Of a stretch of DNA of 24,193 bases, positions 5,180 through 22,137 are shown piece by piece. This DNA comes from a virus. Position numbers and translations under genes: made by a program. The stretch's first letter is position 1; every line of letters begins with the position of its first letter. The notes beneath the pieces were generated by a model. The model was not told the DNA's origin. It saw only the letters and a list, made by a program, of their open reading frames with translations, and did not search any database. The stretch covers positions 1-24,193 of IMG/VR virus record IMGVR_UViG_3300030061_000374. The stretch is one strand, 5' to 3'.

Positions 5180-5464
5180 TTACATCTCCTTCTTGCCTAA
5201 ATTGAAATCGATGTGGGCTCCACAAGTTCTACACTTGTCAACCCAGCAAAAGTAAAGCATTCCGCAACTCTTGCATCGAGTGCCTGAACCAATGTTCAGT
5301 ACATCGCCTGCGTTCTTGTTACGGTTCCTTTGCTTGAGAGTGAGCCCGTCTAGGGGCTTATCTTCGTTAGTTCTGACTGCTGCGCCGTATGATTCGTTAA
5401 GACGAATGCCACGCTTCTCTAAGCGCTTTATGTCATCGAGGCCAAGGCTACCGAATCCTTCCAC
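5180..5464 (-). CDS. Small zinc-knuckle protein
   Basis: A 94-residue protein starting at GTG 5464, fixed by the box GAGGTGATTAA directly before it. The C-terminal third has C64-x2-C67, an extra C73, and C78-x2-C81, a treble-clef or zinc-ribbon type metal site. The N-terminal part is charged and probably helical (LDDIKRLEKRGIRL), followed by a Lys/Arg/Asn-rich linker. Its place inside the head-tail gene block suggests a minor structural or assembly role, though small zinc proteins can also bind nucleic acid or act on transcription. I do not recognise a named family. The 58-base gap after it (5122-5179) is one of the longest in the window and contains nothing I can call. Confidence 0.6.
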   Translation of the reverse strand: MEGFGSLGLDDIKRLEKRGIRLNESYGAAVRTNEDKPLDGLTLKQRNRNKNAGDVLNIGSGTRCKSCGMLYFCWVDKCRTCGAHIDFNLGKKEM

Positions 5465-5669: not shown

Positions 5670-5990
5670 TCACTTCCTTCCAATTATTATACCTGATGTT
5701 TTGCCTTCGATTGTAGAAGTTATTGTGGCCGCAGCGTTATCTGCTTGCTTTAGAGTCACAGTGGTACCGCTTAATTCTACACAAATTGGTATGTGTAACT
5801 CAAAAGGATTACTACCGTTATCAAATGTACTACGGGCAAGGGTTGCCTGACCAACAGGGTTAACCACTACGCTGTAAATCTCTCTCATGTATGGCGATGC
5901 ATCAAGAGTTACTGCTTGGTTCTCATCAGATTTGAATGCCACTATTATTAGCCCATTGACATTAGTAGGGTTATCAAATGTTACTGCCAT
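5670..5990 (-). CDS. Decoration-like protein, paralog 4 of 4
   Basis: A 106-residue protein starting at ATG 5990 in a TAATG overlap with the preceding stop; SD GGGAGG upstream. It opens MAVTFDNPTNVNG, continues with a block like its siblings (LDASPYMREIYSVVV) and ends IIIGRK. The shared pattern in the family is MA-V-x-F-[DE]-x-RP at the start, a central D-x-SPYM-R-x-[IV]-x-SV motif, and IGRK at the end. This copy is the most diverged near its N-terminus, having lost the RP and GD residues. All look like small beta sandwiches without membrane segments. Four such genes just after the capsid gene suggest head decoration or cement subunits, but a vertex or tail role is possible. Confidence 0.6.
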   Translation of the reverse strand: MAVTFDNPTNVNGLIIVAFKSDENQAVTLDASPYMREIYSVVVNPVGQATLARSTFDNGSNPFELHIPICVELSGTTVTLKQADNAAATITSTIEGKTSGIIIGRK

Positions 5991-6322
5991 TAGCCCTTCC
6001 TCCCTATTGCTATGAAGTGGCCTGCTGCCGTAGCGCCGCCACCCACCGCTCCACCGAATAATGTAACTGATGTGCCGCTTGTTCCTGTTATGTGACAGCC
6101 GTCAGGTGTTGGAACATTTCTATTCACACTACCACCTGCTTCGTTATCGCATCCTATAGATGTGACTGGAGTGGCAATCCCTGTTGGTAACATTAACTGT
6201 ACGCTATCAACTATCCTCATGTAAGGGCTTAGGTCTATAGTAGTATCAGAAGCAGCGTATGTGCCTCTAATCATAACTTGGTCTCCGAGATTTACTGGTC
6301 TCGTTTCAAAAACTACTGCCAT
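5990..6322 (-). CDS. Decoration-like protein, paralog 3 of 4
   Basis: A 110-residue protein from ATG 6322 in a TAATG overlap, SD GGGAGGAG upstream. It begins MAVVFETRPVNLGDQVMI, has the family motif LSPYMRIVDSVQL near residues 31-43 and ends FIAIGRKG. Between them is a Gly/Thr/Ser-rich loop region (GGAVGGGATAAG) that varies between copies. It pairs closely with paralog 2 in the N-terminal RP-x2-LGD motif and with paralog 4 in the SPYM-R motif, so it bridges the family and supports one common origin. Probable surface subunit of the capsid, inferred from position after the major capsid gene. Confidence 0.62.
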   Translation of the reverse strand: MAVVFETRPVNLGDQVMIRGTYAASDTTIDLSPYMRIVDSVQLMLPTGIATPVTSIGCDNEAGGSVNRNVPTPDGCHITGTSGTSVTLFGGAVGGGATAAGHFIAIGRKG

Positions 6323-6636
6323 TATGCTCTCCTCCCATAAATCATTAACTTGCCAGCACCATTGTTTGTGCCGAAGCCTGAGCCTCCGCCTAGTATAGTG
6401 AATGACCTTCTGTCAGTACCAAGAATAGCCTGAGTCGCCGTATTCGTGTTACCTGCCGTTAGCATGTTAACATTGGTAGGTGCTTCAGTATTCATTACAA
6501 TTATCGCATCTATCAACATACCGGGCACTTTGATTGGAAGTGACGCTGCCACATCCGTTTCTGCAGCAGTATATTCTGCTGTTAGAATAATTCTGTCACC
6601 GAGGTAAATCGGTCTTTTGTCAAAGGTCACTGCCAA
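6322..6636 (-). CDS. Decoration-like protein, paralog 2 of 4 (TTG start)
   Basis: A 104-residue protein that starts at TTG 6636. Two facts fix this rare start: the box GAGGTGATTAA lies two bases upstream, and the resulting N-terminus MAVTFDKRPIYLGDRIIL lines up residue for residue with paralogs 1 and 3. The C-terminus is LMIYGRRA, matching the family's IGRK ending. The middle carries a longer strand segment (IDAIIVMNTE) and a Gly/Asn-rich loop. The stop overlaps the next start as TAATG. Function as for the rest of the family: likely a capsid decoration or minor surface protein. Confidence 0.62.
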   Translation of the reverse strand: MAVTFDKRPIYLGDRIILTAEYTAAETDVAASLPIKVPGMLIDAIIVMNTEAPTNVNMLTAGNTNTATQAILGTDRRSFTILGGGSGFGTNNGAGKLMIYGRRA

Positions 6637-6638
6637 GG

Positions 6639-6649
6639 TTAATCACCTC
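6639..6649 (-). promoter_or_regulatory. Stop-SD box GAGGTGATTAA (copy 3)
   Basis: Identical box, two bases before TTG 6636, with the TGA of the 81-residue gene inside it. It decides the TTG start of decoration paralog 2. Confidence 0.65.
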
Positions 6650-6893
6650 AGCGTGTTCCTATTGCCATCCAAGTACCGCCACCACTACCTGCTTCTGTAG
6701 CATGTGCTGTTGTTCCGTTGATGGAAGTCACCATTGCTCTTGCTGTAGCGTCTGCCTCATTACATGCAAAGAATATAATCTTTGAAAGATGTGAAGAAAG
6801 GTCTACTGAAATAGTATCGCCGTTTGCAAATGTTCCTGTTATTACTACCAAGTCACCAATTACATGTGGTCTTGGGTCAGTTGTTATAGCCAT
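6648..6893 (-). CDS. Decoration-like protein, paralog 1 of 4 (shortest)
   Basis: An 81-residue protein from ATG 6893 with SD GGAGATGA upstream. It begins MAITTDPRPHVIGDLVVI, aligning with the MAVTFDKRP-x2-LGD start of paralogs 2 and 3, has a matching ISVDLSSHLSKI stretch and ends WMAIGTR, the family's short C-terminal strand. It is about 25 residues shorter than its siblings, missing the variable loop. The shared head and tail with a variable middle suggest a duplicated beta-sandwich scaffold whose exposed loop differs between copies. Confidence 0.6.
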   Translation of the reverse strand: MAITTDPRPHVIGDLVVITGTFANGDTISVDLSSHLSKIIFFACNEADATARAMVTSINGTTAHATEAGSGGGTWMAIGTR

Positions 6894-7783: not shown

Positions 7784-8962
7784 TCAAGACAAGTCTCGGA
7801 TTGAACCTTGACCTCCAAAGAAAGTAGTCCAAACTTCACCCATTGTGCGGTAAAGTCCTTCCTGTCCAAGCCTGTTAACAGCGAATGGGTCTCCAGTCTC
7901 GATACCGGACTCAAAGTATTGAGTTGGTTTCGCAGTACTGTAGTATAGGTAATCTGTGTCTAAGCAGTAGATTCTGCTAATACCGTCAGTTTCAGCAGTT
8001 ACATCCTTAGATGGGATAATTGGGACACCGTTGTAAGTTGCGACTATAAATCCAGCCTCAACACCCGGTACACCTTTGACACCGTTGTAAGTTGGTACAA
8101 CTCTCTTCTCTTCCATGAATCTCTGCTGAGACTGTAGAAGTTGCTGAATACGCATTAGAGTGTCATATCCTGTTAGCATAACCTTAGGGTTACCACCACG
8201 AATCCAGATTTTCTGGAACATTTCGTCAAGATGGTCAAGGGATAATACTGCGTTACCTGAACGAGTACCACTTGCTGTATTAGCCAAGACTACTTCTGCA
8301 TCAGACCAAGTGTTAGCACTTCGGTCAATGCTGTAGATGTCAAGGTCAGTAGCAGTGCTTGCGTGAGCCACTGGAGGGCTTGCAGTTGAAGAACCGCTTA
8401 CATCCATTGCAGCAGCGCTTGCAGTAACACGGTCCAAGGACTCGATGTCGTTACCTGCAGGTGTGTCTACATCCTGTGTTAGCATTTGGTTGATGTGCTC
8501 AGCGTGGTGCTTACCCATCTCTTCCTTTAGGACAGAGCGAATGTCGCCCAGTCCGTCATCCTTGTCATTCAAGAAGATTGCAACTTCAGACATATCGAAT
8601 GTGTGTGCGATAGTCTTAGGCTTTGCAGCAATGTTTTGGAATGTAGGCTTGGTAGTCTCAGGAAGTGTTGCGTTCTCTGCTACTCCGCCACCGACTGCTG
8701 TCGAAGGCTTTGCAGTTACAACTCTCCATCCACTGCGGTCCCAAGGCTTCTTAGGTAGAATGGAGAATGCGTTGAACTCTTGGTTCAACTGACTCCATAC
8801 TTTGCGTCCGTAGATTGCTTGGTATGTACCAGCGGTTGTGCTCAATAGTGGAGCATCTGCTTTCAATAGTTCGCTTCCACTGTAGGTGTAGCCCATTGAA
8901 CTACCTGCTCCGTAATAGTAGCGTTCCATATCGTTAACTGTTCTCATGTAATTTCGTGCCAT
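7784..8962 (-). CDS. Major capsid protein, HK97 fold
   Basis: A 392-residue protein with the best SD of the window (AAGGAGG, seven bases before ATG 8962). It directly follows the protease-scaffold gene, the standard HK97-type order. The N-terminal arm is followed by a probable E-loop (SGWRVVTAKPSTAVGGG), a spine-like helix region (IRSVLKEEMGKHHAEHINQM), and a C-terminal part with PKVMLTGYDTLMRIQQL, GVPIIPSKDV and RIYCLDTDYLYY, the typical A-domain run ending in TMGEVWTTFFGG. A Ser/Ala/Thr-rich stretch near residues 180-220 is probably an inserted surface loop. No covalent cross-linking residues can be assigned by eye. It forms the icosahedral shell. Confidence 0.8.
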   Translation of the reverse strand: MARNYMRTVNDMERYYYGAGSSMGYTYSGSELLKADAPLLSTTAGTYQAIYGRKVWSQLNQEFNAFSILPKKPWDRSGWRVVTAKPSTAVGGGVAENATLPETTKPTFQNIAAKPKTIAHTFDMSEVAIFLNDKDDGLGDIRSVLKEEMGKHHAEHINQMLTQDVDTPAGNDIESLDRVTASAAAMDVSGSSTASPPVAHASTATDLDIYSIDRSANTWSDAEVVLANTASGTRSGNAVLSLDHLDEMFQKIWIRGGNPKVMLTGYDTLMRIQQLLQSQQRFMEEKRVVPTYNGVKGVPGVEAGFIVATYNGVPIIPSKDVTAETDGISRIYCLDTDYLYYSTAKPTQYFESGIETGDPFAVNRLGQEGLYRTMGEVWTTFFGGQGSIRDLS

Positions 8963-8978: not shown

Positions 8979-9860
8979 TTATTCCCAAACCGTCCCTGCG
9001 AGACTGTGTACTTCGTCCCACGACATATTTGCTAGTTCCTGTGTAGATGGTATTTCTACGGTGGAAGATGAATCCGACTTGCGGATAGTTGATTCTGCCG
9101 GAGCAGTACTAATGTTGTCAATGCGATTGCTTAGGTCAGAAAGCGCCTTTTCAATGTTAGATAGTGGTGTACGAGCGTCGAACTGTGCTGCTGCACGAGC
9201 CTCTGCTTCATGGTTAAGTTCCTTAGAAAGGCGGTCACTGAATACAGCGCCAAGGTTACCCTTGAACTGCTCTTCTAGTGCTGCAGCCTTGTAAACTTCA
9301 TATGCAGCCTCAATATCTGTTGAAGATACATTAGTTGGACTTAGATAACCTTTAGCAACTTCTTTGCCGGAGTTAATCTTTCCAACTGCTCCAGTTGATG
9401 GTGAACCATTTTCTGTTGCACGGCCTTTAACTTGGCCTGCAAAGTAGTCTGCTCCATCTCCAATCTGTTCAGGGGTACTGCCGAGGTTAGCCTTTGCAAC
9501 ATCATCAAAGTGAGTCCTTGCGCCGGAAATGTCTACGCCCTGAGATTTCAGAGTGTTTTCCATCCAGTTAAGGTATTCGCTTGTGATAACATCTGAGTAG
9601 CCATCGCTCTTCTGTGCCATATCGTGTCCTTGTCCATACATTGCTTCTTTTTCATCTTTGTCAGCCATTCGCTCACCTTTGTCTTTCTCAGTTTTTTTGT
9701 CATCGCCTGAATTAGATTCGTCCTTTTCGTCCTTTTCGTCCTTTTCGTCTTTCGGCTTTAGGAAAGGAGGTAATTCGCCCTTCTCCATTGCGTCCATACG
9801 ATGGTTTAGTCTATCCAATACAGTAGATAATTCGCTTAATGCGCCATTTTCGTTTGTCAT
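8979..9860 (-). CDS. Scaffold protein from an internal start in the protease gene
   Basis: Inside the protease frame, ATG at 9860-9858 (codon 180 when counted from 10397) is preceded by AAAGGAGG with an eight-base spacer. That SD is as strong as the one for the major capsid gene. The ATG lies just after the catalytic domain. Initiation there would give a 293-residue protein (begins MTNENGALSELSTVLDRL) made of helical and charged segments, without protease residues. This matches lambda, where scaffold Nu3 is the C-terminal part of the C protease gene, made from an internal start. A weaker second candidate is ATG 9668, with AAGGTGAG upstream. Expression is inferred. Confidence 0.6.
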   Translation of the reverse strand: MTNENGALSELSTVLDRLNHRMDAMEKGELPPFLKPKDEKDEKDEKDESNSGDDKKTEKDKGERMADKDEKEAMYGQGHDMAQKSDGYSDVITSEYLNWMENTLKSQGVDISGARTHFDDVAKANLGSTPEQIGDGADYFAGQVKGRATENGSPSTGAVGKINSGKEVAKGYLSPTNVSSTDIEAAYEVYKAAALEEQFKGNLGAVFSDRLSKELNHEAEARAAAQFDARTPLSNIEKALSDLSNRIDNISTAPAESTIRKSDSSSTVEIPSTQELANMSWDEVHSLAGTVWE

Positions 9861-10397
9861 GCTTGTGTCCTCCTTTAGTATTCTAAAAGTTGCTTCAGGG
9901 TTGATGCCCTTTTCACAAATAGTCACTTCGTGTAGTTCCAGTTTGGAGATTTCAGTGTAGTCACCATGTTGTTGGTCACTCTTTCGCATTCTCTTGAATG
10001 CTTGTCCTCCAATACTGAAGCCTCTTAGTGCTCCTTTGCGAATCTCACTGGCAACTTCTCTTGCCTTTTCGATGTCATCTCTTAGTTGGATGACTACGAA
10101 CATACCAGCGTCATCAACGCCGGATTTCCATACACGACCATCAGAGTCTGTGTACTGTGGTATTACACTACCAACTTGTATGTTAGAGTGTGCGAGTTGT
10201 ACATTGCGGAACCCGTCAGCCTTCATGAAGTCGCCAAATGCGTTCTTCAATGCTCCACGGGTAATTAGGTCGCCTTGCTTATCTACCATCTCTACAGATG
10301 CGTAGCCAGCAATTACGAGGTCATTGTCAGCCTTGACTATGCTAATACTACCCGTGTGGTTAACAGGGGATGTACGCAGGGTCATCGAGGCCGACAT
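8979..10397 (-). CDS. Prohead maturation protease fused to a scaffold-like domain
   Basis: The N-terminal 175 residues are an HK97-family (U35-type) prohead protease: H70 in LAHSNIQVGSV, S128 in RGFSIGG and E157 in ELHEVTI are spaced as the expected triad. It trims the scaffold and capsid arms during head maturation. After this comes a charged linker with a KDE repeat (about residues 211-260) and a long helical region to residue 472, which looks like a scaffold. I choose ATG 10397 (472 residues), preceded by GGTGG; TTG 10409 and ATG 10385 are alternatives. An in-frame internal start is described separately. The next gene is the major capsid protein, 16 bases on. Confidence 0.75.
   Translation of the reverse strand: MSASMTLRTSPVNHTGSISIVKADNDLVIAGYASVEMVDKQGDLITRGALKNAFGDFMKADGFRNVQLAHSNIQVGSVIPQYTDSDGRVWKSGVDDAGMFVVIQLRDDIEKAREVASEIRKGALRGFSIGGQAFKRMRKSDQQHGDYTEISKLELHEVTICEKGINPEATFRILKEDTSMTNENGALSELSTVLDRLNHRMDAMEKGELPPFLKPKDEKDEKDEKDESNSGDDKKTEKDKGERMADKDEKEAMYGQGHDMAQKSDGYSDVITSEYLNWMENTLKSQGVDISGARTHFDDVAKANLGSTPEQIGDGADYFAGQVKGRATENGSPSTGAVGKINSGKEVAKGYLSPTNVSSTDIEAAYEVYKAAALEEQFKGNLGAVFSDRLSKELNHEAEARAAAQFDARTPLSNIEKALSDLSNRIDNISTAPAESTIRKSDSSSTVEIPSTQELANMSWDEVHSLAGTVWE
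9719..9754 (-). repeat. Nine-base tandem repeat encoding Lys-Asp-Glu
   Basis: The plus strand carries CGTCCTTTT three times in a row, then a degenerate fourth unit. On the coding strand it gives repeated KDE triplets in the linker between the protease and the scaffold-like region. Such a repeat is prone to change in length by slippage, which would alter only linker length. Confidence 0.75.
9869..9876 (-). promoter_or_regulatory. Internal ribosome binding site within the protease gene
   Basis: On the coding strand AAAGGAGG is followed by ACACAAGC and ATG. It lies within codons for Lys-Glu-Asp, so it also encodes protein, but its match and spacing equal those of genuine gene starts here. Confidence 0.6.
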
Positions 10398-10421
10398 TGT
10401 TTCCACCAAATCTGTTCATAC

Positions 10422-10428: not shown

Positions 10429-13400
10429 TCAAGTACGGAATGTGGCAGAGTCGGGTGTTACTTCAAGAGTGCCCTCTTCTAAGGGTATAGTCATATGCTT
10501 AGCAGGCTCTTCGTCCTTCGTTCCCGGCTCTATAGAGTAATCTTCACCGGGGCGTTTTCTAGTATCAAAGTCAGGCATTGTCTTAGAATCGTGTAGGTTA
10601 GTCGGACCAGTAGGCGATTCTATAGGAGTAGCGTACCCTATGCCTAATCCCATAGCACCTGTGCTAGATTGACCAACTGCTCCTACTCCACTCTTTAGTA
10701 TCTTTTCAACCAGTACTAATCCTTTGACAAGTATCTTTCTTTTCTGTTCCTCGTCCCACCAATCAGTACCTTTGACTTTCTTAGGCTTAACTAGAGGTTC
10801 CCCCGGCTCTACTGAGTCGGTAGCAAATCCGCCATTTTCGTTTTCTTCTTCTCTAATGTCTAAGTCTGCCTTTAACAAAGCACCCGCAACTGGACTCCAG
10901 TATTCTCTTTGACTTTCAGACAAACGGATGAGATAAGAGTTGGAAGCCAGCGGACTATGTACTGTCCACATACTACCAGTCTGTGTACACTTGTACAGCA
11001 CATCTCCTTGAGGCATAGTTACTCTGATACCAGTACTGGCTCTCGATACTTCGCATAACCACTGCGAAGATTCGGACTTAGCAAGTAAACCTAGGGTTTC
11101 TTGACTAACAAGTCCTTCTCCTTCTGCTTCCTCTTTGATGTCGGTAGATGTAACAGTGTACAGTTTCTGACCATTAGCGGTTTCAGATTCGCCTACATTA
11201 GATACATTGACACTAACATGGTCTCCTTCGTTATACTTTTCAGAACTACCAAAGGCTGCACCTACATCCATGTAAGTCTCTCCGCCTGATTCAACTGCTC
11301 TATCACCCAAGTCATCTTCTTGTGTAATTGGCCCAGTGCCTAAGCGGTATGTGTAAGGTCCTTCGCCTCTTCTTTCAAGTACTCTCAGTACCACATCACT
11401 ACCTTCGTTAAGCATAACCCATTTAGGATGACGCATTTCTCCTACCATGTAAGTAGACTTAGCGTCTCGTAAAAGCAACTTGTCATGTTCTTTCTGCAGG
11501 TCTTCTACTATTAGTTCAAGGCCTGCATCGTCTGTAAGCCTTGTATCGCTGGCACTTGGAACATGTATATTCTCTACTCCTTCCATGCCGCCTCTTAGAA
11601 TCTTAATACGGTCATCTAGTAATGTATCGTGTACTTTCTTGTCATCGTATTCTAATACATCAAAGATGTAGTAACCGTCTTCTGTCTTTATGACATCAGC
11701 GTGGAAATTGTTATCTGTAACTTTCTTGAAGTTCTCTTTATCTTCATCTGACAATGTGAACGGTTTGGCTGAGATTTTATCATCATCTTTCTTTACGAAT
11801 CCTCTTTCACCTTCAGGCATTACTGAAACCAACCAGTCGCCTGTAAAGCCACGAAGGTGCTCTAAGTCTTCTAATTTGAATATACGATGCATCGGTTGTA
11901 GAAGAGGTACTTCTTTTCCAAGTTCTTTTCTGATTATGTCAGGGTTAGTTAAAGACGCTAATCCCATTTCGGACTTAGCAGTTGCTTCGGTGTCAGAACC
12001 ATGAATATAACCTTCCCCAGTCATATGCTTATGTGGCCCCAACCTGTCATTATGTATTAGTTGCTCAGCAGTCATCCCGTCATGGTGTGTGTAATCAGGG
12101 TGCAACATATGTGATAAGTGAGGGGCGATTGACTCAAATATATTTTGTAGCGGATTTAACAAACGCATTTTTCTTCTACTGTCTTTGAGTGTAACCGTAC
12201 CATCAGGTGAGATACTGTAATCGAATGAAGGTGTTACTCTTTCTCCAAACTCATGCCTTAGACCATTAGAATTGTAAATACTAGGGACAGAATGTGAGTT
12301 TGGGCCGAATGCATCTATAGGTACTTCGCCAAACCCAATCTGACTAGTACTGACGCTTTGCGCTTCTTTAGGCTCAATGTTAGGGTCACTGAATAACAAA
12401 GAGTTCAAAACCTGCTGTGCATTGTAAGCCTTGGAAGTTCTCTTTCCGTCTTTACTTTCTTTCTTTTTACCTGACCTTTCTTTAGTAGGTTCGCTTATAC
12501 GGTGGTCAGAACTATGAGCGGTGTGATAAAGAAGACCTAATTGCTCGTTTAGTTTGTCAATATCAGCCTTTGCGCCTCTTCCTTTTCCGCCCTCATGAGG
12601 CTTTACATGGCTAGAAATCTGAGTGGTCAATTGCAACAACTCTTTGTTAGCCTTAGGGCTTCTAGTTTTGAGCATGTCAATCTCGTTTTGGAAATCCATG
12701 TCAGGGTCTACTTTGCCAGTAGCCTTCAGATACTGACCTACTGTCATAACAGGGAGTTGGAAATTAGGGTCATTTCCTGATTCTACAAACTTCTTTTCAA
12801 ACATGTTAAGGAAATTAGTGATAGTATGCTGCACATGTGGGTTAGAATCATAATCAGGTAGCCCTAATTTTTCAACAAGACCTTTGTAATCCATCAAGTC
12901 CTTTATGCCCATCTTGACAGGGCTATCATGCACTACTTGCTTTATGTCACTAGACAGTGCTGCACCGGGCATTGCTCTCTCAACCGCATGGTCATCTATA
13001 CCCATTGTAGTCAGACCGTGTGCTTCATGAGGTGCAATATGTGCATAGTCGTTAACCATTTTAGCGAACATTCTAACATTTGCTTCTAAGGTCTCAAGAG
13101 GTAAACTGGGGTCGAACATTGCATCATAATCTGATTCACTAACAATTCCTTTGTCTATCATTATACCAGCAAGGTCTTCAAATGCTTTAGAGGTGTGGTG
13201 AAACTGTTCATATTCTAAATCAGATGGATTATAATTTAATTGAGTAGGTGTACCTTCTACGACGGCTCTATTTTTGTGAGAGATTTCTTCGTTCAATTTA
13301 TGAAGTTCTTGCTCTAAGCGACTTCTATCTTCCTCAGTTAAATCTTCACCTTCAAAGGTAGGAGTCGGTTCATGTCTTTCTTCAACAGGAGTTCCCCTCC

Positions 13401-16400
13401 TGTGAGATTCATCAAAGGTTATTTGCTTACCTGCTTTTAATTGCGCTTCTATCAAGCCTGCTTTTTCTTGAAGAGTATGTAACTCGTCTTCGTCTTCTGA
13501 GAAAAAGGGCTCGGCAGCGGTGTGCATGGACAGTCGTTTGTCCTCTTCTTCTGCCATCGACGCAGCGGGGTTAACAGTTGCTAAGTTTTCTGAATACTGT
13601 CTGCCCATCAAAGACCGATGTTGAGAGGGGTCGTGAATAAATCGCTGATTTAGTCTTTCTAATCGACGCTCGTGCGCTCCTTTAATTGCTTCAATATGCT
13701 GCGCTTTGATTTCTTCCGAGGTAAATGAGTGCTTAGTCCCATCTTCAAGTGTATATGTCTCAGGCTTAGGGTTACTCGCCTCAACATTAGCCAACTGTAT
13801 TCTTAACATTCTGTCCAAACTATCTTTGTAATTTTCTACATCTTCTTCAGTTTTGAGTGATATACCTTCAGGGTCTTTTGTCTCTAAGTCCTTTAGGTCT
13901 TGGAGTCCGTCAAATGTAGTCATACCTGTTCTTTCATTAGATGCGGCTGTTAGTCGCTGTATACCCGTACCCGGACTCAAGGCAGGGCTAGCCACTCTCC
14001 ACATTGAGCCAATTCTATGATAAGTATGGGCATTCGCTTTGATTTTTTTACCATACTCATAAGCGCCTCCTTTACCTGTAAATGGATTACTGGTAGCCAA
14101 AGCGCCTCCTTGCATTCCATTAGTTAATATCTTGTGTAGGCGCCTAGCCTCTTTGACATCATTCCTTAACCTAGCCTCATGATATTGGTCATAAATCCTA
14201 TTCATGAAAGCAGGGCTATAAGAAGAAGAATGTCTCATAACTTGTATAGCCGGTACAGAACCCTTCACTCTTGAACTATATCTCTTGTTGTGAGGGTTTC
14301 CAGTAACACCGTGGTGCCCCTCGCCTTCGTCTCCTGTCAAAGCAACTGTCTGCTCTTTGCCCCCAACATTCATTCTAGTCAATTCGTGATTGGGTTGTCC
14401 AAAGTTACCAGTAATTCCTAAAGTATGATTACCACCCGGTACTAGTGAGCCGTCGCTTGGATTATATTCGTGACGAGCATTAATGTGCTGTTTACTTCTT
14501 GAAAATAACAAACTATCTTCTTGCTTGTGTTTGTTTCGCCTAACCTTGTAACCTATGCCCGCATCCCGTCTTTCTTTTTCTGCAAAATGTTCATCATAGT
14601 CAAACTCTTTTTCTTCTTCTTCTTTTTCAGGCTCAAGTTCTGCTCCTTCATCAGGGTCATACAACAAAGATGCTTGATGCAAAAGGTCAAACAGTTGGTT
14701 AGGAGGCTTAGCCATGCCCCCTCTTACCCAAGGTTTCTGCCAATATGTACTGAGCGTTTCGTGAGGCTTATCGTCACCTTCTATAACATACTCAGGGTAA
14801 GTATTGTGGTCAATGGCGTCACCTACCATGAAAGCAGTTTCGTTTTCAGTTATGCGACGATTAAACTCTTGTTTCTTTTTACTTCCAGCCAACTTAACAA
14901 GTTTAGTAACTTCCTCTTGGCTAATAGGCGATTCAGAAGATTTCCAATCGTCGTAAAGAGGATGTTCGCCGTCAGAGTATATGTTGCCATCATTGTCTGC
15001 ATTTAACAAAAGCATGAGCATTTCTCTGTTTATTCCAGCGTATTTATCATCAGCAGACCTTCTATCAGTTCCTTTACTAGGCTTAGACCTAGAACGAAAC
15101 TGTATGCTTTTCCCGCCATTAGCAAAGGTAGCCTGAACGCCCTTTACTTGTGCTTCCGCTTCAGTTGCTTCATCAGTATGAATGTAAGGCTTACCTACAG
15201 TAGATGGGCTGCCGTTCATACCGGCCCTGTCCATCATATAATTCATAAGTAACTCATAGGTGTTACCTTTGCCCATAGTAGTGCTTTGAGTCAAAGTATC
15301 ATACCAGTGATGCGGTGAGACAAACTCAGACCTTTCAGGCATTGGTTTTCTTTTCTGCCTTCCAGCATTACCGGGCATGCTTGGGTCTCTTACCCAGTGG
15401 TCATACATTCCCGCAAACCTTTGGTCAAAACTGCGCTTAATTCTAGGCATCCAGTTAATAAACTGATGTCCAGTGTTATTACCATTAAACGCCTCCCGAT
15501 AACCTTTGTCTCCAAGGTGTTTGTAAAAGTCATTTCTATGTTCAGGAGTCATCCATTCCAAACCAAACATATAGTCCCAAAATCCTAAGTTCTGTTTCCA
15601 CTCTTGTTTCTTCTCATTGATGTGAGAGAGTCTTATTCGATGGTCTATTTCATCAGCAGAATAGCCTTCATTTTCTAACTCAAGTCTTCTGTTAGCAATT
15701 GCTCTGTCATTACTAGCGTCCCAATTAGCAAAGTCTTTTTCATAAAGTGCTTGCATAGTTGACAAACCGTCAATTTCACCATAGTGTGAAGGACTTAGTA
15801 AAAAATCATGACCCATTTCACTATTGTGCTCATCCCAAGCCAACTCTTTGTGATGGTCTTTTTGGCTCTGAGCCTTGCCACCCATCCACCCATTGGCACC
15901 CGGATTTACATAGAAGTCACCTACATGTTCATGCATCATACCATGTAGTGGATTGAAGTCAGGGCCAAAGAAATCGTGAGTGGCGTAAGGGTCGTCAGGG
16001 TCACCATCTACCATTTCAGGATGATAGCCTGACAAACCTTGTCCGGGTTCAGGCGGAACTATCCTACCGTCTCTGTAAGAGCCATCTACTAGTTGTTGAC
16101 CCATAAGCAAGTTATTCATACTAACTTGAGTATAGTCAGTAGTCCTTAGCGGCACACCTCCTTCCATTTCTTGCTGAAGGTTCAGGCTGCCCCCCGCAGA
16201 CTGTTCGATGCCCCCCTCTCCGTATCGCTCATCCTTCATAACATGGTAAACCATCTTAACGAGAGCAGTATCGTCTGCGCTAAGGACATAGCCCTTACGC
16301 TGAGCGCTAATTGAACTAAAGTAAAACTCAGCAGCGGAGTCGGCTTTATCTATGCCGTCAGAAAGGGACTTTAGGAAATAGTATCTTGACCTGTCAAGAA

Positions 16401-16422
16401 TGTCTAATGGTCCTTCTCTCAT
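10429..16422 (-). CDS. Giant head-region protein (1997 aa) with a dead DNA-ligase-like domain
   Basis: Starts at ATG 16422 with GGGTGAT upstream, ends at 10429. It fills the gap between the portal cluster and the protease, where minor head or internal proteins are encoded. No signal peptide or membrane segment is visible. Residues about 1-650 are rich in His, Asp, Met and Trp; about 540-1250 includes highly charged, probably coiled-coil stretches. Residues about 1510-1765 follow an ATP-dependent DNA ligase core: MPEGER at 1535-1540 where KxDGxR is expected, YIFDVLEYDD (D1588) then LLDDR like motif IIIa, LLLRD-x4-Y-x2-G ending W1668 like motifs IV and V, then an OB-like segment. The catalytic Lys is Met, so catalysis is unlikely. 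The C-terminal 100 residues are disordered. Probably a virion or assembly protein. Confidence 0.65.
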   Translation of the reverse strand: MREGPLDILDRSRYYFLKSLSDGIDKADSAAEFYFSSISAQRKGYVLSADDTALVKMVYHVMKDERYGEGGIEQSAGGSLNLQQEMEGGVPLRTTDYTQVSMNNLLMGQQLVDGSYRDGRIVPPEPGQGLSGYHPEMVDGDPDDPYATHDFFGPDFNPLHGMMHEHVGDFYVNPGANGWMGGKAQSQKDHHKELAWDEHNSEMGHDFLLSPSHYGEIDGLSTMQALYEKDFANWDASNDRAIANRRLELENEGYSADEIDHRIRLSHINEKKQEWKQNLGFWDYMFGLEWMTPEHRNDFYKHLGDKGYREAFNGNNTGHQFINWMPRIKRSFDQRFAGMYDHWVRDPSMPGNAGRQKRKPMPERSEFVSPHHWYDTLTQSTTMGKGNTYELLMNYMMDRAGMNGSPSTVGKPYIHTDEATEAEAQVKGVQATFANGGKSIQFRSRSKPSKGTDRRSADDKYAGINREMLMLLLNADNDGNIYSDGEHPLYDDWKSSESPISQEEVTKLVKLAGSKKKQEFNRRITENETAFMVGDAIDHNTYPEYVIEGDDKPHETLSTYWQKPWVRGGMAKPPNQLFDLLHQASLLYDPDEGAELEPEKEEEEKEFDYDEHFAEKERRDAGIGYKVRRNKHKQEDSLLFSRSKQHINARHEYNPSDGSLVPGGNHTLGITGNFGQPNHELTRMNVGGKEQTVALTGDEGEGHHGVTGNPHNKRYSSRVKGSVPAIQVMRHSSSYSPAFMNRIYDQYHEARLRNDVKEARRLHKILTNGMQGGALATSNPFTGKGGAYEYGKKIKANAHTYHRIGSMWRVASPALSPGTGIQRLTAASNERTGMTTFDGLQDLKDLETKDPEGISLKTEEDVENYKDSLDRMLRIQLANVEASNPKPETYTLEDGTKHSFTSEEIKAQHIEAIKGAHERRLERLNQRFIHDPSQHRSLMGRQYSENLATVNPAASMAEEEDKRLSMHTAAEPFFSEDEDELHTLQEKAGLIEAQLKAGKQITFDESHRRGTPVEERHEPTPTFEGEDLTEEDRSRLEQELHKLNEEISHKNRAVVEGTPTQLNYNPSDLEYEQFHHTSKAFEDLAGIMIDKGIVSESDYDAMFDPSLPLETLEANVRMFAKMVNDYAHIAPHEAHGLTTMGIDDHAVERAMPGAALSSDIKQVVHDSPVKMGIKDLMDYKGLVEKLGLPDYDSNPHVQHTITNFLNMFEKKFVESGNDPNFQLPVMTVGQYLKATGKVDPDMDFQNEIDMLKTRSPKANKELLQLTTQISSHVKPHEGGKGRGAKADIDKLNEQLGLLYHTAHSSDHRISEPTKERSGKKKESKDGKRTSKAYNAQQVLNSLLFSDPNIEPKEAQSVSTSQIGFGEVPIDAFGPNSHSVPSIYNSNGLRHEFGERVTPSFDYSISPDGTVTLKDSRRKMRLLNPLQNIFESIAPHLSHMLHPDYTHHDGMTAEQLIHNDRLGPHKHMTGEGYIHGSDTEATAKSEMGLASLTNPDIIRKELGKEVPLLQPMHRIFKLEDLEHLRGFTGDWLVSVMPEGERGFVKKDDDKISAKPFTLSDEDKENFKKVTDNNFHADVIKTEDGYYIFDVLEYDDKKVHDTLLDDRIKILRGGMEGVENIHVPSASDTRLTDDAGLELIVEDLQKEHDKLLLRDAKSTYMVGEMRHPKWVMLNEGSDVVLRVLERRGEGPYTYRLGTGPITQEDDLGDRAVESGGETYMDVGAAFGSSEKYNEGDHVSVNVSNVGESETANGQKLYTVTSTDIKEEAEGEGLVSQETLGLLAKSESSQWLCEVSRASTGIRVTMPQGDVLYKCTQTGSMWTVHSPLASNSYLIRLSESQREYWSPVAGALLKADLDIREEENENGGFATDSVEPGEPLVKPKKVKGTDWWDEEQKRKILVKGLVLVEKILKSGVGAVGQSSTGAMGLGIGYATPIESPTGPTNLHDSKTMPDFDTRKRPGEDYSIEPGTKDEEPAKHMTIPLEEGTLEVTPDSATFRT
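11125..11905 (-). other. Pseudo-ligase domain (nucleotidyltransferase plus OB fold) within the giant protein
   Basis: Motif order and spacing match an ATP-dependent DNA ligase: motif I equivalent at residue 1535, IIIa at 1585-1603, IV at 1647-1652 and V at 1668. The OB-like part contains GETYMDVGAAFG and GDHVSVNVSNV followed by a Lys-Leu-Tyr strand. Substitutions remove function: motif I Lys to Met, motif I Asp to Glu, motif IV Glu-Gly to Asp-Lys, and motif V W-x-K-x-K to WVMLN. The fold call is by eye from motif pattern. Confidence 0.6.
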
Positions 16423-17523: not shown

Positions 17524-17559
17524 TTAGCCACTCTCCCACTTAACTTTAACCTTACTCAT
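17524..17559 (-). CDS. 11-codon mini-ORF between portal and next gene
   Basis: ATG at 17559-17557 overlaps the portal stop as ATGA. It encodes MSKVKVKWESG, then TAA at 17526-17524, three bases before the next ATG. It fills the whole gap between the two genes. It may act as a coupling device that carries ribosomes across a gap where the next gene's SD is weak, rather than making a functional peptide. Chance is possible in such a short space. Confidence 0.3.
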   Translation of the reverse strand: MSKVKVKWESG

Positions 17560-19322
17560 GCCCCTTTGAAATTACGGGCATCTAGTATACTTTGACTGGC
17601 TTGTTGAACTCCGCCCATCGGCATGCCTCTTTGCTGAACGCTAGAAGTAGGAGAGCCTGCTCCCATCGATGTTCTATTCTGAGGGCTGGCTGGTCCGCTT
17701 GGTGTACGAATACCTGCTCCTTCTCCACCCGGCTGACTCATACCTACTTGTCTAGCCATCTGTGCTGCACCTTGCGGACTTATGTTGCGGCCCGGCAAAG
17801 CGCCCGGAGTGCCCATTCCTCCGCCCATTCTCATACCGCCCATTGGCATTCCGCCCATGCCCGGTGGCATTCCGCCCATGCCCGGTGGACCCGGAGGAGG
17901 TTGTTGATTTGGGTCAGGTTGTTTGTAGATGAAACGGATGTCTCGGTTAGCATCTTGGTTTAGCGTAGGCTGGTAGCCCAACATCATCATGCGCTGTGCA
18001 ATGTTAACTTCCATTTCGTCACGACGCAGCCGAGTAACTTCGTCTTCTTCTTCATTAGGATAAAGCGTCAATTTCCAATCGGTTACATCCATTTGCTCGG
18101 ACATGCGTGGGAATAGATGGTCTGTGTAAACTTTATGACCAAACTCAACCGCTCGGTTAGTAACAAGAATCTGCATACCTTCATTGTTTAATCCACCGGA
18201 TTTACCAGTGTCCATCATAAACACATTAGACACTCCATAGAATGCAGCAATCCTTTGTCTCATTTCATCACGAGCAGGTATGTACTGCATCTCTTCAAGG
18301 CTGTCCATCAACTTAACCCAGTTGACTCCACCTTTACCGCTACCTTCTGTAGCAATCTTAGGAATGTAATGTGGGTCACGCTCTAACTTTTCATCAGTAG
18401 ATTTCCAAAAAGCCTTCATAGACTCAAGGTTGTCAGTGTTGATGCTAAGTATTCCTCTAGGGATTCTGCGCTTTGAGTAGGCAGTATACATGTAATTATC
18501 CATCGCTGTCAAAGTCATAGCCTGTCGCCAAAGTGTAGAAACAGGAGAGCGACCATACAACTTAGATGGATTATACTTACTAACATGGATTACTTCTCCT
18601 TTCAGATAGTATTGTGTTTTACCACTACCTGCTGTATTAACATGGTGTACATCTTCTAACTCATGTCCACAAATGTCACAGGTTTTTTCTTCTTGGCTGA
18701 AAGACTTCACTTGGTCACGGTGCACTGGACAAACTCTGAATCTACCGCCCCTTACTCCACGCTTATCTGCAATGATACGCATAAAGATAGGGTCTCCTCT
18801 AACTAACTCCTTTACTCTGTAAAATGAAACTTCGTTAGTTTCAGGGTCAATGTAGTACTCTTTGATTAGAATTAAGAATGCATCGTCTGTGATATTCAAG
18901 TCATATTCTATTTCTCTCAAGACATCCATAAAGGACTGCTCCATAGAATTGCGTTGCTCTAATAACCACTTAGGGTATACTAGTTGGTCCGGCTCAGGGT
19001 CACGGACTTCTCCGCCACATTCATCGCAGGTTTCAACATCGTGTTGATATTCTTTATCACACTGTACGCACTTTTTGTGAAACTTCTTTTCCCAATAGTA
19101 ACCACGGCGAAAGATTTCTTGCTGAAGAGTAGAAAGTACAGTTCTAAGAATTAGGTTTTCTTGAGACACTGCATAAAGTGCAGGTATAGTAATACCTTGT
19201 ACAAGCACGGGCTCTTGAATACCAGTAGTCCACAATGGCATCTGTGGTTCAGGTGTCCTTCTTCTTCTGAATGGACTTGCCATCGATTCTAGTATTCTAC
19301 CTATTCTTCCTTTTTCTGCCAT
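17556..19322 (-). CDS. Portal protein with two metal-binding knuckles
   Basis: I start it at ATG 19322 (588 residues): this overlaps the previous stop as TAATG and GGAGG lies seven bases upstream. Portals form the dodecameric DNA channel at one vertex. The order terminase, portal, protease, capsid and the sequence pattern fit: GVSNVFMMDTGKSGG-like loop, YTAYSKRRIPRGIL, and EEMQYIPARDEMRQRIAAFYG near the stem. Unusual are two Cys/His sites: C85-x2-C88 with C99-x2-C102, and C198-x2-H201 with C215-x2-C218. The last 120 residues are a Pro/Gly/Met/Gln-rich tail, probably disordered. The portal identity is from these features and synteny, and is fairly secure. Confidence 0.75.
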   Translation of the reverse strand: MAEKGRIGRILESMASPFRRRRTPEPQMPLWTTGIQEPVLVQGITIPALYAVSQENLILRTVLSTLQQEIFRRGYYWEKKFHKKCVQCDKEYQHDVETCDECGGEVRDPEPDQLVYPKWLLEQRNSMEQSFMDVLREIEYDLNITDDAFLILIKEYYIDPETNEVSFYRVKELVRGDPIFMRIIADKRGVRGGRFRVCPVHRDQVKSFSQEEKTCDICGHELEDVHHVNTAGSGKTQYYLKGEVIHVSKYNPSKLYGRSPVSTLWRQAMTLTAMDNYMYTAYSKRRIPRGILSINTDNLESMKAFWKSTDEKLERDPHYIPKIATEGSGKGGVNWVKLMDSLEEMQYIPARDEMRQRIAAFYGVSNVFMMDTGKSGGLNNEGMQILVTNRAVEFGHKVYTDHLFPRMSEQMDVTDWKLTLYPNEEEDEVTRLRRDEMEVNIAQRMMMLGYQPTLNQDANRDIRFIYKQPDPNQQPPPGPPGMGGMPPGMGGMPMGGMRMGGGMGTPGALPGRNISPQGAAQMARQVGMSQPGGEGAGIRTPSGPASPQNRTSMGAGSPTSSVQQRGMPMGGVQQASQSILDARNFKGA

Positions 19323-20623
19323 TACAAATCCTCCGCCCAACTTATTATAGTGTCTCTATCAATTCCCCACTCTTTCAAAGACTCTTCACCCTTTGTAGTA
19401 CCGTCTCTGTTAGAGAACTGCACGAATCTCTTTAATTGAGTTTTGCGTAATGGGTCTTTTTCGCCAAGGAAGGCAACCACCGCTTTGGCCTGCCTATCTT
19501 TCATTCTAAGATGAGGAGTAATCTTGTCTAGTAATTTAGTCAAATCGTCTTTAGAATAGAAACTTACTCTGTGCTGACTGCGTTGACCATCCTTGTACAC
19601 CTTTTGGTCAAGTTGTAAAACGCCTGCTCCGAGATTTTTGTGCAACTGCTCACAATGCATACGCCCTCTGTCACCTGTAGCGATGAAACCTGCACGGGGC
19701 TCTCCTCTTTCTGTGATAGTGATGTAGCCGTCAGCATCAAGGAAGCCCGCTGCATAAGCCCAAGGGTCTTTGATAATCAGTCCGTCTTTGGACAGACACA
19801 TGTATTCGCCTTTACGAGGTGCTTTGATAATGTTAATCTCTTCACCATACATATTAAGTAACTTTGATAATCGATTAGAGTTCAGCCTAGGTACTCCTTT
19901 TTCAATGAGATTTCCTGTAATAACCCTAGCAGTCATGGCACCCTTTTCAGTCATTTCTTCTTTAGCAAGTTTCAACCACTTCTGCTGCTCTTTAGAAAGG
20001 GCATCAAACTGGTGCAAAGATGTTCTCCACATCTTTCTTGCATCTTGCTTTTGTTGCATAGCACCTACCCAAGCGTTCTGCTCTTCTTCGCCCCATACAT
20101 CTTGAAACTCATCTAACTTAGAAAGAGAATCCTCTGCGCTTTGCCATAGATTGCAAGCCCTGACCAAACTAGATTTTCTTGTATTACCAAACAACCTAAG
20201 AGCCTTTAGGTCTTTGTCACTTATGCCCATCTTCCTCATAGTGTCATTATGGTCTTGTCCCCAATCTAATTTACTAATGGTGGCTTCCACTTCCATGCTT
20301 TTGAGTTTCCTTATACTGGAGATGATGTTATCGATTTCTCCCTTATCTTCTTTGAAAACTCGGCGAGCCTTTCTCAAGTCCCTGATAATACTGTTAGCAC
20401 TTTTGCCTAGTTTATCTTCAAACCAACCGTCACCAGTAGGACAAAAGGGAGCATAGTTAACAGGAGAGTTATCTTCTACAATAATAGATTGAGACGCTAT
20501 GGACTTCGCAACCCTTTCGTCAACCAAAGGGTGGGACAATAAACTACTAGCAATAGTCGTCATAATGTCATGGCCCATGTCGACCAATCGATTTGATTCT
20601 CCTACACTAAGACTTGCCCACAT
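19322..20623 (-). CDS. Winged-helix plus LAGLIDADG protein
   Basis: Start set at ATG 20623 (433 residues): GGAG lies six bases before it, whereas GTG 20635 has no SD. It sits between terminase and portal, genes that are usually neighbours. Residues about 1-220 are helical and charged and not recognised. Residues about 225-280 look like a winged helix (ITGNLIEKGVPRLNSNRLSK, then KGEYMCL). From residue 289 comes a LAGLIDADG-type domain: YAAGFLDADGY with D296 and D298, then strands and helices up to 400. Only one such motif is seen, so a nuclease would need to dimerise. It could be a free-standing homing endonuclease, or a domesticated DNA-binding regulator or packaging factor. The flanking genes are intact. 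Confidence 0.7.
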   Translation of the reverse strand: MWASLSVGESNRLVDMGHDIMTTIASSLLSHPLVDERVAKSIASQSIIVEDNSPVNYAPFCPTGDGWFEDKLGKSANSIIRDLRKARRVFKEDKGEIDNIISSIRKLKSMEVEATISKLDWGQDHNDTMRKMGISDKDLKALRLFGNTRKSSLVRACNLWQSAEDSLSKLDEFQDVWGEEEQNAWVGAMQQKQDARKMWRTSLHQFDALSKEQQKWLKLAKEEMTEKGAMTARVITGNLIEKGVPRLNSNRLSKLLNMYGEEINIIKAPRKGEYMCLSKDGLIIKDPWAYAAGFLDADGYITITERGEPRAGFIATGDRGRMHCEQLHKNLGAGVLQLDQKVYKDGQRSQHRVSFYSKDDLTKLLDKITPHLRMKDRQAKAVVAFLGEKDPLRKTQLKRFVQFSNRDGTTKGEESLKEWGIDRDTIISWAEDL

Positions 20624-20646
20624 ATGCTTCTCCACTTTTTGGTGTC

Positions 20647-20655: not shown

Positions 20656-22137
20656 TTAGGCTACGAACCAGTCAACTCCCGCTACTCTGCTCTGAGGAAC
20701 ATCCCCAAACCATTTATCGAATCCATCGAGATAATCGTCAAGCATAACTATGCTACCCTTGAACTCTTTAGTAGCCCAATTAGCCAATGCTAAGGACATA
20801 GCCAAGTCATCGTGAGTACCCACGGACTCTAAGCGCCCGTTCTTCTGCATACCGAATCTACTGAGTTGAGTTTCTAATATACGAGTAAACTCTTTGCTCT
20901 TTTCATTACCCCAAGGTGTCTTTATCTTACCTTGCTCAAATGCCATGAGTAGAGACATAAACATACTCTCTTTCTTCTGACGAGTGGTCATGAAAGTTTT
21001 GATAGGAATATCGTCTCTCATTTCTTTCAACTCGGCTTCAAACATTCGCTGGAAGTTGTTACCTTCCAACTCAATCAAGTCAGGTCTAAATCGACTGTTG
21101 AGTAAAATAATTTGGCGCTTCTGCGCTGCGCCTCCAAGTCCTTTTTCATTAAGCATGTAAATCAACTGCTTCTCTTCGCTATCAGGTAACATGCGTAGCA
21201 AACTCATTGCAGTGTAATCTGCATTGGCGTCAGAGGCAATTGCAGGGTCCCAGCCTATGAAGTGCTGACCGAATACTCCTTGAGATTCGCCTTCTTCGTC
21301 AAACTGTTGCTCAGCCTTGTCTAGTAAAATCAAGTTCTTGTCCCTTGCTTTTTCTAACATAGCCATTGGGAACATACTGCTCAGGTCGTGTATAGGTTCG
21401 CACAGGTACTCACGAGCGAACTTAATCGCAGGCATAGACTCTTCACGCTGTTTCAAAGCGTCAAGAGGCCAACGGCTAGGCCAAAGTGGTTCACCGTTAG
21501 GTAGAATAGCCGGATAAGTTTCGACTTGGAATGTATCTTTGTCCTCCAATTCTGCGTACAAGTCATTGTAACTGAAAGGTGTACCGACCATCATGAGTCG
21601 ACCTGTGTGATGCAGAACCGGAAGTAAAACTGTATAGAACCAATCAGCCGCTCGTTGTAGTTCTCCTGTTGTGGTACCCCAAAGAATATCGTCACATACT
21701 ACGACATCAGGGTGGAAACCACGAGTTGCACCACCAACGGACTTAGCCATCATACGGCTACCGTTAGTGAACTCAAAGTAAGACTTAGCCCAAGGTTTAC
21801 CCTGTGGCTTCAAGTCTTTTAGAATGTCAGAGGTTTCTATGTTATTTCTGATAAATCTCATGTGCTCAAGTGTCTGCTCAAGCGAATGGCTGAATACCAT
21901 AACATGCGTATTGGGATTGAATGCCGCTATCCAAAGAGCATAGGACATGAAGAATACAGACTTACCGTGGTCACGACTCGCTTTGACACAGTAGTATCGA
22001 TGGCCGTTTAATCCATCCAGCCACTGCTTGTGATGGTCGGAGAACTCAAATCCCAAGATTTCAGTGAAGAAGTATTCAAATGATTTCTTGGACATCTGTA
22101 TGTCCATGTCCTTGACCAGTTCATCGACTCCTCCCAC
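20656..22137 (-). CDS. terL: Terminase large subunit (packaging ATPase and nuclease)
   Basis: A 493-residue terminase from GTG 22137, with GGAG nine bases upstream and an in-frame stop just above it. The ATPase half shows a Walker A variant (ASRDHGKS, K59), Walker B VVVCDD at 145-150 and a coupling motif (MMVGTPFSYND). The RNase H-like nuclease half has D297 in GWDPA, E356 in LIELEG and D443-D444 in GTHDDLA, the expected acidic triad. It powers DNA entry through the portal and cuts the concatemer. Length and motif order are normal for the family. The upstream gene stop lies 12 bases before the start. Confidence 0.92.
   Translation of the reverse strand: MGGVDELVKDMDIQMSKKSFEYFFTEILGFEFSDHHKQWLDGLNGHRYYCVKASRDHGKSVFFMSYALWIAAFNPNTHVMVFSHSLEQTLEHMRFIRNNIETSDILKDLKPQGKPWAKSYFEFTNGSRMMAKSVGGATRGFHPDVVVCDDILWGTTTGELQRAADWFYTVLLPVLHHTGRLMMVGTPFSYNDLYAELEDKDTFQVETYPAILPNGEPLWPSRWPLDALKQREESMPAIKFAREYLCEPIHDLSSMFPMAMLEKARDKNLILLDKAEQQFDEEGESQGVFGQHFIGWDPAIASDANADYTAMSLLRMLPDSEEKQLIYMLNEKGLGGAAQKRQIILLNSRFRPDLIELEGNNFQRMFEAELKEMRDDIPIKTFMTTRQKKESMFMSLLMAFEQGKIKTPWGNEKSKEFTRILETQLSRFGMQKNGRLESVGTHDDLAMSLALANWATKEFKGSIVMLDDYLDGFDKWFGDVPQSRVAGVDWFVA

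Follow-up and report, generated by a model that had tools for sequence, protein, structure and literature searches.

We analysed a 24,193-nucleotide viral contig (IMG/VR record IMGVR_UViG_3300030061_000374), referred to below as the window, and found that a 1997-aa protein encoded in its gene block for the head carries a DNA-ligase domain that appears to have lost its nucleotide chemistry. Profile and model evidence confirms the predicted fold of residues about 1496–1775, a nucleotidyltransferase (NTase) domain followed by an OB domain. On balance, we favour a reading in which this pseudoligase no longer catalyses anything and serves a minor or internal head protein as a module for binding or docking, its chemistry having been lost before the sampled lineages diverged. 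An earlier note on the same DNA had described a catalytically dead ligase fold in a giant head-region protein and had proposed a structural or DNA-end or nick-binding role; the observation is confirmed, and the interpretation is partly supported.

The head-to-tail block of this 24-kb contig is encoded on the minus strand. It runs from the terminase large subunit (TerL; 20656–22137; phrog_38, E = 1.4e-62) through an HNH/LAGLIDADG-like gene, the portal protein (17556–19340; phrog_18178, E = 5.3e-67, and PF04860) and three small genes to the giant protein, a single ORF at 10429–16422. The next gene downstream encodes an S78 prohead protease (8979–10409; PF04586, E = 2.4e-11) and is followed by the HK97-fold major capsid protein (7784–8962; phrog_24667, E = 4.9e-54) and the tail genes. 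In tblastn comparisons, the capsid protein is 32–34% identical to those of HCTV-1, HCTV-5 and HVTV-1, which are haloviruses of the Druskaviridae, a family to which magroviruses are distantly related (PMC10768690). This capsid likeness, together with a family-B DNA polymerase (PolB) found in all 12 related contigs tested and the existence of related contigs of up to 109 kb, points to an assignment of the window to the magrovirus group, whose members infect Marine Group II archaea. Orthologues of the giant occupy the same place in 23 of 23 related loci, representing all sampled clades: after the portal and the small genes, and before the protease and the capsid protein, with one short locus among them whose contig stops ahead of the protease. 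As would be expected of a virion-structural gene, the giant thus lies within the conserved head block at every locus, in keeping with the location first reported for it.

Relatives of the window giant are known here from metagenomes. Scans of viral contigs returned 281–508 relatives each, at most 80 per scan being taken into the analysis, and the near-complete homologues (n = 294) range from 1505 to 2038 aa, with a median of 1895. No relatives were found in prokaryote genomes, nor in annotated phage records searched by tblastn with two different queries. The protein can be divided into a fast-evolving N-terminal part (residues 1–1480; 11983–16422), which gave no family or PDB match of note, the NTase-fold pseudoligase domain (residues 1496–1675; 11398–11937), an OB-like domain with approximate boundaries (residues 1676–1775; 11098–11397), and a conserved C-terminal beta domain and tail with SPxGPT and PDxD elements (residues 1776–1997; 10432–11097), all on the minus strand. 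Domains other than the pseudoligase were not recognised in 21 full-length giants.

The ligase family profile PF01068 matches the whole 1997-aa protein with E = 3.6e-5, just under Pfam's curated cut-off, and the window domain alone with E = 6.6e-6 to 3.2e-6. It also matches each of 68 diverse relatives individually, the best at 2.4e-8. A profile of the viral family in turn matches the archaeal DNA ligase 4eq5 (E = 5e-5), and its hhalign comparison with eight genuine phage ligases, including those of HGTV-1 and SPO1, gives E = 8.9e-5 and a probability of 60%. An AlphaFold (AF2) model of residues 1496–1868 (10819–11937, minus strand), comprising the NTase, the OB and a small beta domain, was built from the 68 relatives and has a mean pLDDT of 81.1, with 84–96 in the NTase blocks, and a pTM of 0.62; it was used instead of an earlier, poor model of 514 aa from 29 close relatives (pLDDT 52.5). 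When this model was searched with Foldseek, the 50 best PDB matches were almost all DNA ligases, the best of them archaeal (E down to 4.5e-11). The alignments span NTase and OB, with modest TM-scores of 0.3–0.5 that we ascribe to domain orientation. The OB assignment draws on predicted beta strands and on Foldseek and hhalign alignments that extend into this region. A chance resemblance of motifs was considered as well, and is ruled out by the profile, profile–profile and fold evidence. HMM–HMM alignment with the phage ligases and the structural search uphold the predicted fold that the earlier note had read from the order and spacing of motifs.

Compared with archaeal-type ATP-dependent DNA ligases (PF01068/TIGR00574; Thermococcus sibiricus 4eq5 and Pyrococcus furiosus 2cfm), the giant shares the NTase–OB arrangement, the motif order and spacing, and the fold residues around motifs I, IIIa and IV–V. 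It differs from them in lacking the motif I Lys, the motif III Glu, the motif IV Glu, the motif V Lys and a recognised N-terminal DNA-binding domain, and in the position of the viral domain near the C-terminus of a ~1,900-aa head-module protein.

The motif equivalents lie where they had initially been placed, within 11125–11905 on the minus strand (residues about 1507–1765). Motif I is MPEGER (residues 1535–1540; 11803–11820) and motif IIIa is YIFDVLEYDD (residues 1585–1594; 11641–11670), while LLLRD (1649–1653) and W1668 belong to the motif IV to V segment DKLLLRDAKSTYMVGEMRHPKW (residues 1647–1668; 11419–11484). Two alignment methods, HMMER against 4eq5 (EIKYDGAR) and hhalign against the phage ligases, place the adenylated Lys on M1535; the Arg of motif I is kept. 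Across 161 distinct sequences covering the site, which reach down to about 33% pairwise identity, this position is occupied by M (54), W (47), Y (24), F (18), L (15) or I (3) and never by K, and no relative has the KxDGxR motif with the adenylated Lys of a functional ligase. Recent loss or sequencing error is ruled out by the missing Lys in 161/161 sequences: since relatives never have it, the replacement in the window is not a recent mutation. The other residues whose roles in a working ligase are documented (PMC6698739) are also replaced, as had been claimed for motifs IV and V. The motif III Glu is mostly I or V across the family, the motif IV Glu is variable and not kept, the motif IV Lys is Arg in 157 of 161 sequences, and the motif V Lys is L, M or V. 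The motif III Glu, IV Glu and V Lys are gone in all clades examined, and the combination of motif III Glu, motif IV Glu/Lys and motif V Lys that marks a functional ligase is missing from the giant's domain. R1540, R1605, D1653, S1656, Y1658, R1664, K1667 and W1668 are invariant, as are the S, Y, G, R, K and W of the motif IV–V segment. Some clades keep WYDGKR and LDGIL, which resemble KYDGxR and LDGEx with single replacements and look like remnants of an active ancestral ligase. Judged by these residues, nucleotide chemistry would be excluded, short of an assay.

The domain is under strong constraint. In a comparison with the nearest relative, the NTase (residues 1484–1675) has a dN/dS of 0.046, the OB 0.052 and the C-terminal tail 0.09, compared with about 0.27 for residues 1–1040 and 0.27–0.32 over residues 1–1480. 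The positions that are invariant among 21 distant full-length giants all fall within residues 1511–1953. The pseudoligase is the most constrained part of the giant, and its fold residues are invariant.

Given the place of the gene, the constant C-terminal part and the variable remainder, we favour a docking module. On this view, the NTase and OB domains descend from an ATP-dependent DNA ligase core whose nucleotide chemistry was lost before the sampled magrovirus-group lineages split. The dead core would since have been retained, under tighter constraint than any other part, in a ~1,900-aa protein whose gene lies between those for the portal and the prohead protease. The conserved C-terminal quarter, consisting of pseudoligase, OB, beta domain and tail, may anchor the giant either in the head close to the portal or to packaged DNA, with the fast-evolving N-terminal part possibly performing lineage-specific or host-facing work; a conserved C-terminus and a variable N-terminus would suit a protein that is docked at one end and changes at its working end. 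Invariant residues peculiar to the family, MHR at 1511–1513 and those of the motif IV–V segment (with RDAKSTYMVGEMRHPKW at residues 1652–1668), suggest a putative new binding site near the old pocket. We infer the virion location of the giant purely from synteny, and we also infer its binding partner and the division of labour between its N- and C-terminal parts. Fixed gene order is by itself no proof of a structural role for the giant, and the same data are also compatible with a chaperone, a scaffold or a protein injected early. More tentatively, the dead ligase clamp may be an essential portal-side or inner-head module of the virion, in viruses that have no DNA ligase and use that of the host for replication.

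In ligases, the NTase and OB domains together form the core that clamps DNA. The dead version could in principle still grip ends or nicks, either inside the head or on the genome after ejection, for instance to protect termini or to recruit the host ligase. The motif I Arg R1540 and the pre-motif V Arg R1664 are invariant, at least 95% of relatives have a basic residue at each of nine further positions of NTase and OB, and the giant is encoded beside portal and terminase. We nonetheless regard such an end or nick sensor as unlikely: the second nick-contacting Arg (R42 of ChlV-Lig, R187 of Pmar-Lig; PMC6698739) has no conserved equivalent at residues 1541–1575, the net charge of NTase plus OB is negative in most relatives (median −8), and the N-terminal DNA-binding domain of ligases was not recognised in the giant. 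The DNA-end or nick-binding role put forward in the earlier note is thus not established, and nick binding through the usual ligase contacts is weakly supported and not favoured.

The giant might instead be a polyvalent-type effector that is delivered by the virion and injected with the DNA, with the pseudoligase acting as effector or decoy on host nucleic acids or repair. Packaging and injection have been predicted for polyvalent proteins, and the MuF head protein of phage Mu carries a catalytically inactive PBECR domain (PMC5512222), a precedent for a dead nucleic-acid enzyme domain in a head protein. In Druskaviridae, the interval from portal to protease and capsid protein holds zeta toxin-annotated proteins of 1,200–1,300 aa (with a ParB nuclease in HCTV-5), as well as an ADP-ribosyltransferase (HCTV-5) and MuF-like or head-assembly proteins. 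The magrovirus giant resembles the polyvalent and MuF-fusion proteins and the Druskaviridae zeta-toxin/ParB giants in being a large protein of the portal–protease region, but it has no detectable homology to them and no recognised second enzymatic domain. Neither several effector domains nor a MuF or portal fusion was found in the 21 full-length giants, and a ligase domain is not among the polyvalent-protein domains in the passages of PMC5512222 consulted. Homology to the Druskaviridae zeta-toxin giant, including sequence similarity to that of HCTV-5, is not detectable, and the pseudoligase is absent from the Druskaviridae regions searched. An effector would moreover be expected to vary, yet the pseudoligase is the most constant part of the giant, and we consider this explanation quite improbable.

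Among dead enzymes of this fold, the nearest precedent is snurportin-1, whose m3G-cap-binding domain (PF21974) is a covalent-nucleotidyltransferase fold that lacks the motif I Lys, is used for binding, and has PxG(K/E)R in place of xDGxR. Its CPVGKR stands at the place of the viral MPEGER; PF21974 matches 13 of the 68 relatives (best 2.5e-6), the window itself giving no match, the mRNA capping enzyme family matches 16 of the 68, and aromatic residues are common at position 1535. Non-chemical binding of a modified nucleotide or a capped end in the old nucleotide pocket is still very doubtful, given that motifs IV–V and the OB resemble DNA ligases and not snurportin, that PDB snurportin chains matched weakly (E = 0.027), that no modified-end ligand is known in the magrovirus system, and that the resemblance to this eukaryotic nuclear-import adaptor is weak and limited to the motif I–IIIa region. 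It is scarcely credible that the domain is an atypical ligase or nucleotidyltransferase that remains active through a different residue: although 49 of 161 sequences have a Lys one residue upstream of the register (mostly K1534–W1535) and the motif IV Lys position holds Arg or Lys, that upstream Lys is out of register, would face the other side in a beta strand and is missing in most relatives including the window, and the remaining catalytic residues are gone as described above.

The dead domain bears on the published account of magrovirus replication. An ATP-dependent DNA ligase, or simply a DNA ligase, is attributed to magroviruses in ICTV profiles and in a survey (PMC10768690, PMC12999244, PMC10160649). 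The profiles class it among replication and repair genes, and magroviruses are described with an extensive replication gene set that includes an ATP-dependent DNA ligase (PMC10768690, PMC12999244); PMC7318539 places the magrovirus ligase beside the prohead protease. In 30 of 31 contigs of 47–109 kb, PF01068 matched inside the open frame of the giant and nowhere else. The remaining contig, G019, has no PF01068 match anywhere although it carries the giant (L187), and the profile is therefore at its limit there. No second, genuine ligase was found elsewhere by PF01068 in the 31 contigs, whereas the same search detects the genuine HGTV-1 ligase at 1.2e-27. The NAD-ligase (PF01653) and ligase C-terminal (PF04679) families were absent from the six contigs checked, and the RNA-ligase family PF09414 from the twelve checked. 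Because it has the same neighbour, belongs to the same virus group and would correspond to the sole PF01068 match in magrovirus-group contigs, the ligase published for magroviruses is very probably the dead domain of the giant.

The earlier note had known of no described phage head protein of this kind. The domain sequence is apparently already listed as the magrovirus ‘ATP-dependent DNA ligase’, but the magrovirus papers cited here report neither that the domain is dead nor that it is part of a giant head-module protein, and the literature searched here gave nothing on ligase pseudoenzymes in virions. If the published ligase is the dead domain, the replication model of these abundant marine archaeal viruses would be wrong on this point, the host would have to seal nicks, and a repurposed enzyme within a head-module protein would have gone unnoticed behind automatic annotation. 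More than 300 sampled viral loci in which a ligase fold is conserved solely for binding would also offer a natural experiment for telling the parts of the ligase core that serve fold and binding from those that serve chemistry.

Several further features were observed. The HNH/LAGLIDADG-like gene (19322–20635, minus strand) encodes a 437-aa protein, with the HNH/LAGLIDADG-like part at its C-terminus, that lies between TerL and portal in 23 of 23 related loci and is 41–78% identical among them; a mobile homing endonuclease would not be expected to be so constant, which suggests that the protein has a role in packaging. Near its N-terminus, at residues about 89–112, the portal protein contains a zinc-ribbon-like CxxC...CxxC insert. 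In HCTV-5, HVTV-1 and HCTV-1 (loci L062, L065 and L066), genes for zeta-toxin giants lie in the portal–protease interval that in the magrovirus group holds the gene for the giant pseudoligase protein, and the HCTV-5 interval also contains ADP-ribosyltransferase and sialidase genes. A 94-aa protein with two CxxC pairs (5180–5464, minus strand; zinc-ribbon-like) is conserved in 21 of 23 related loci at about 39–84% identity. Finally, four small tandem genes on the minus strand (5670–5990, 5990–6322, 6322–6636 and 6648–6893) encode proteins with similar N-terminal parts. These small head or tail proteins appear to form a local family, and in several relatives a single ORF matches at this site.
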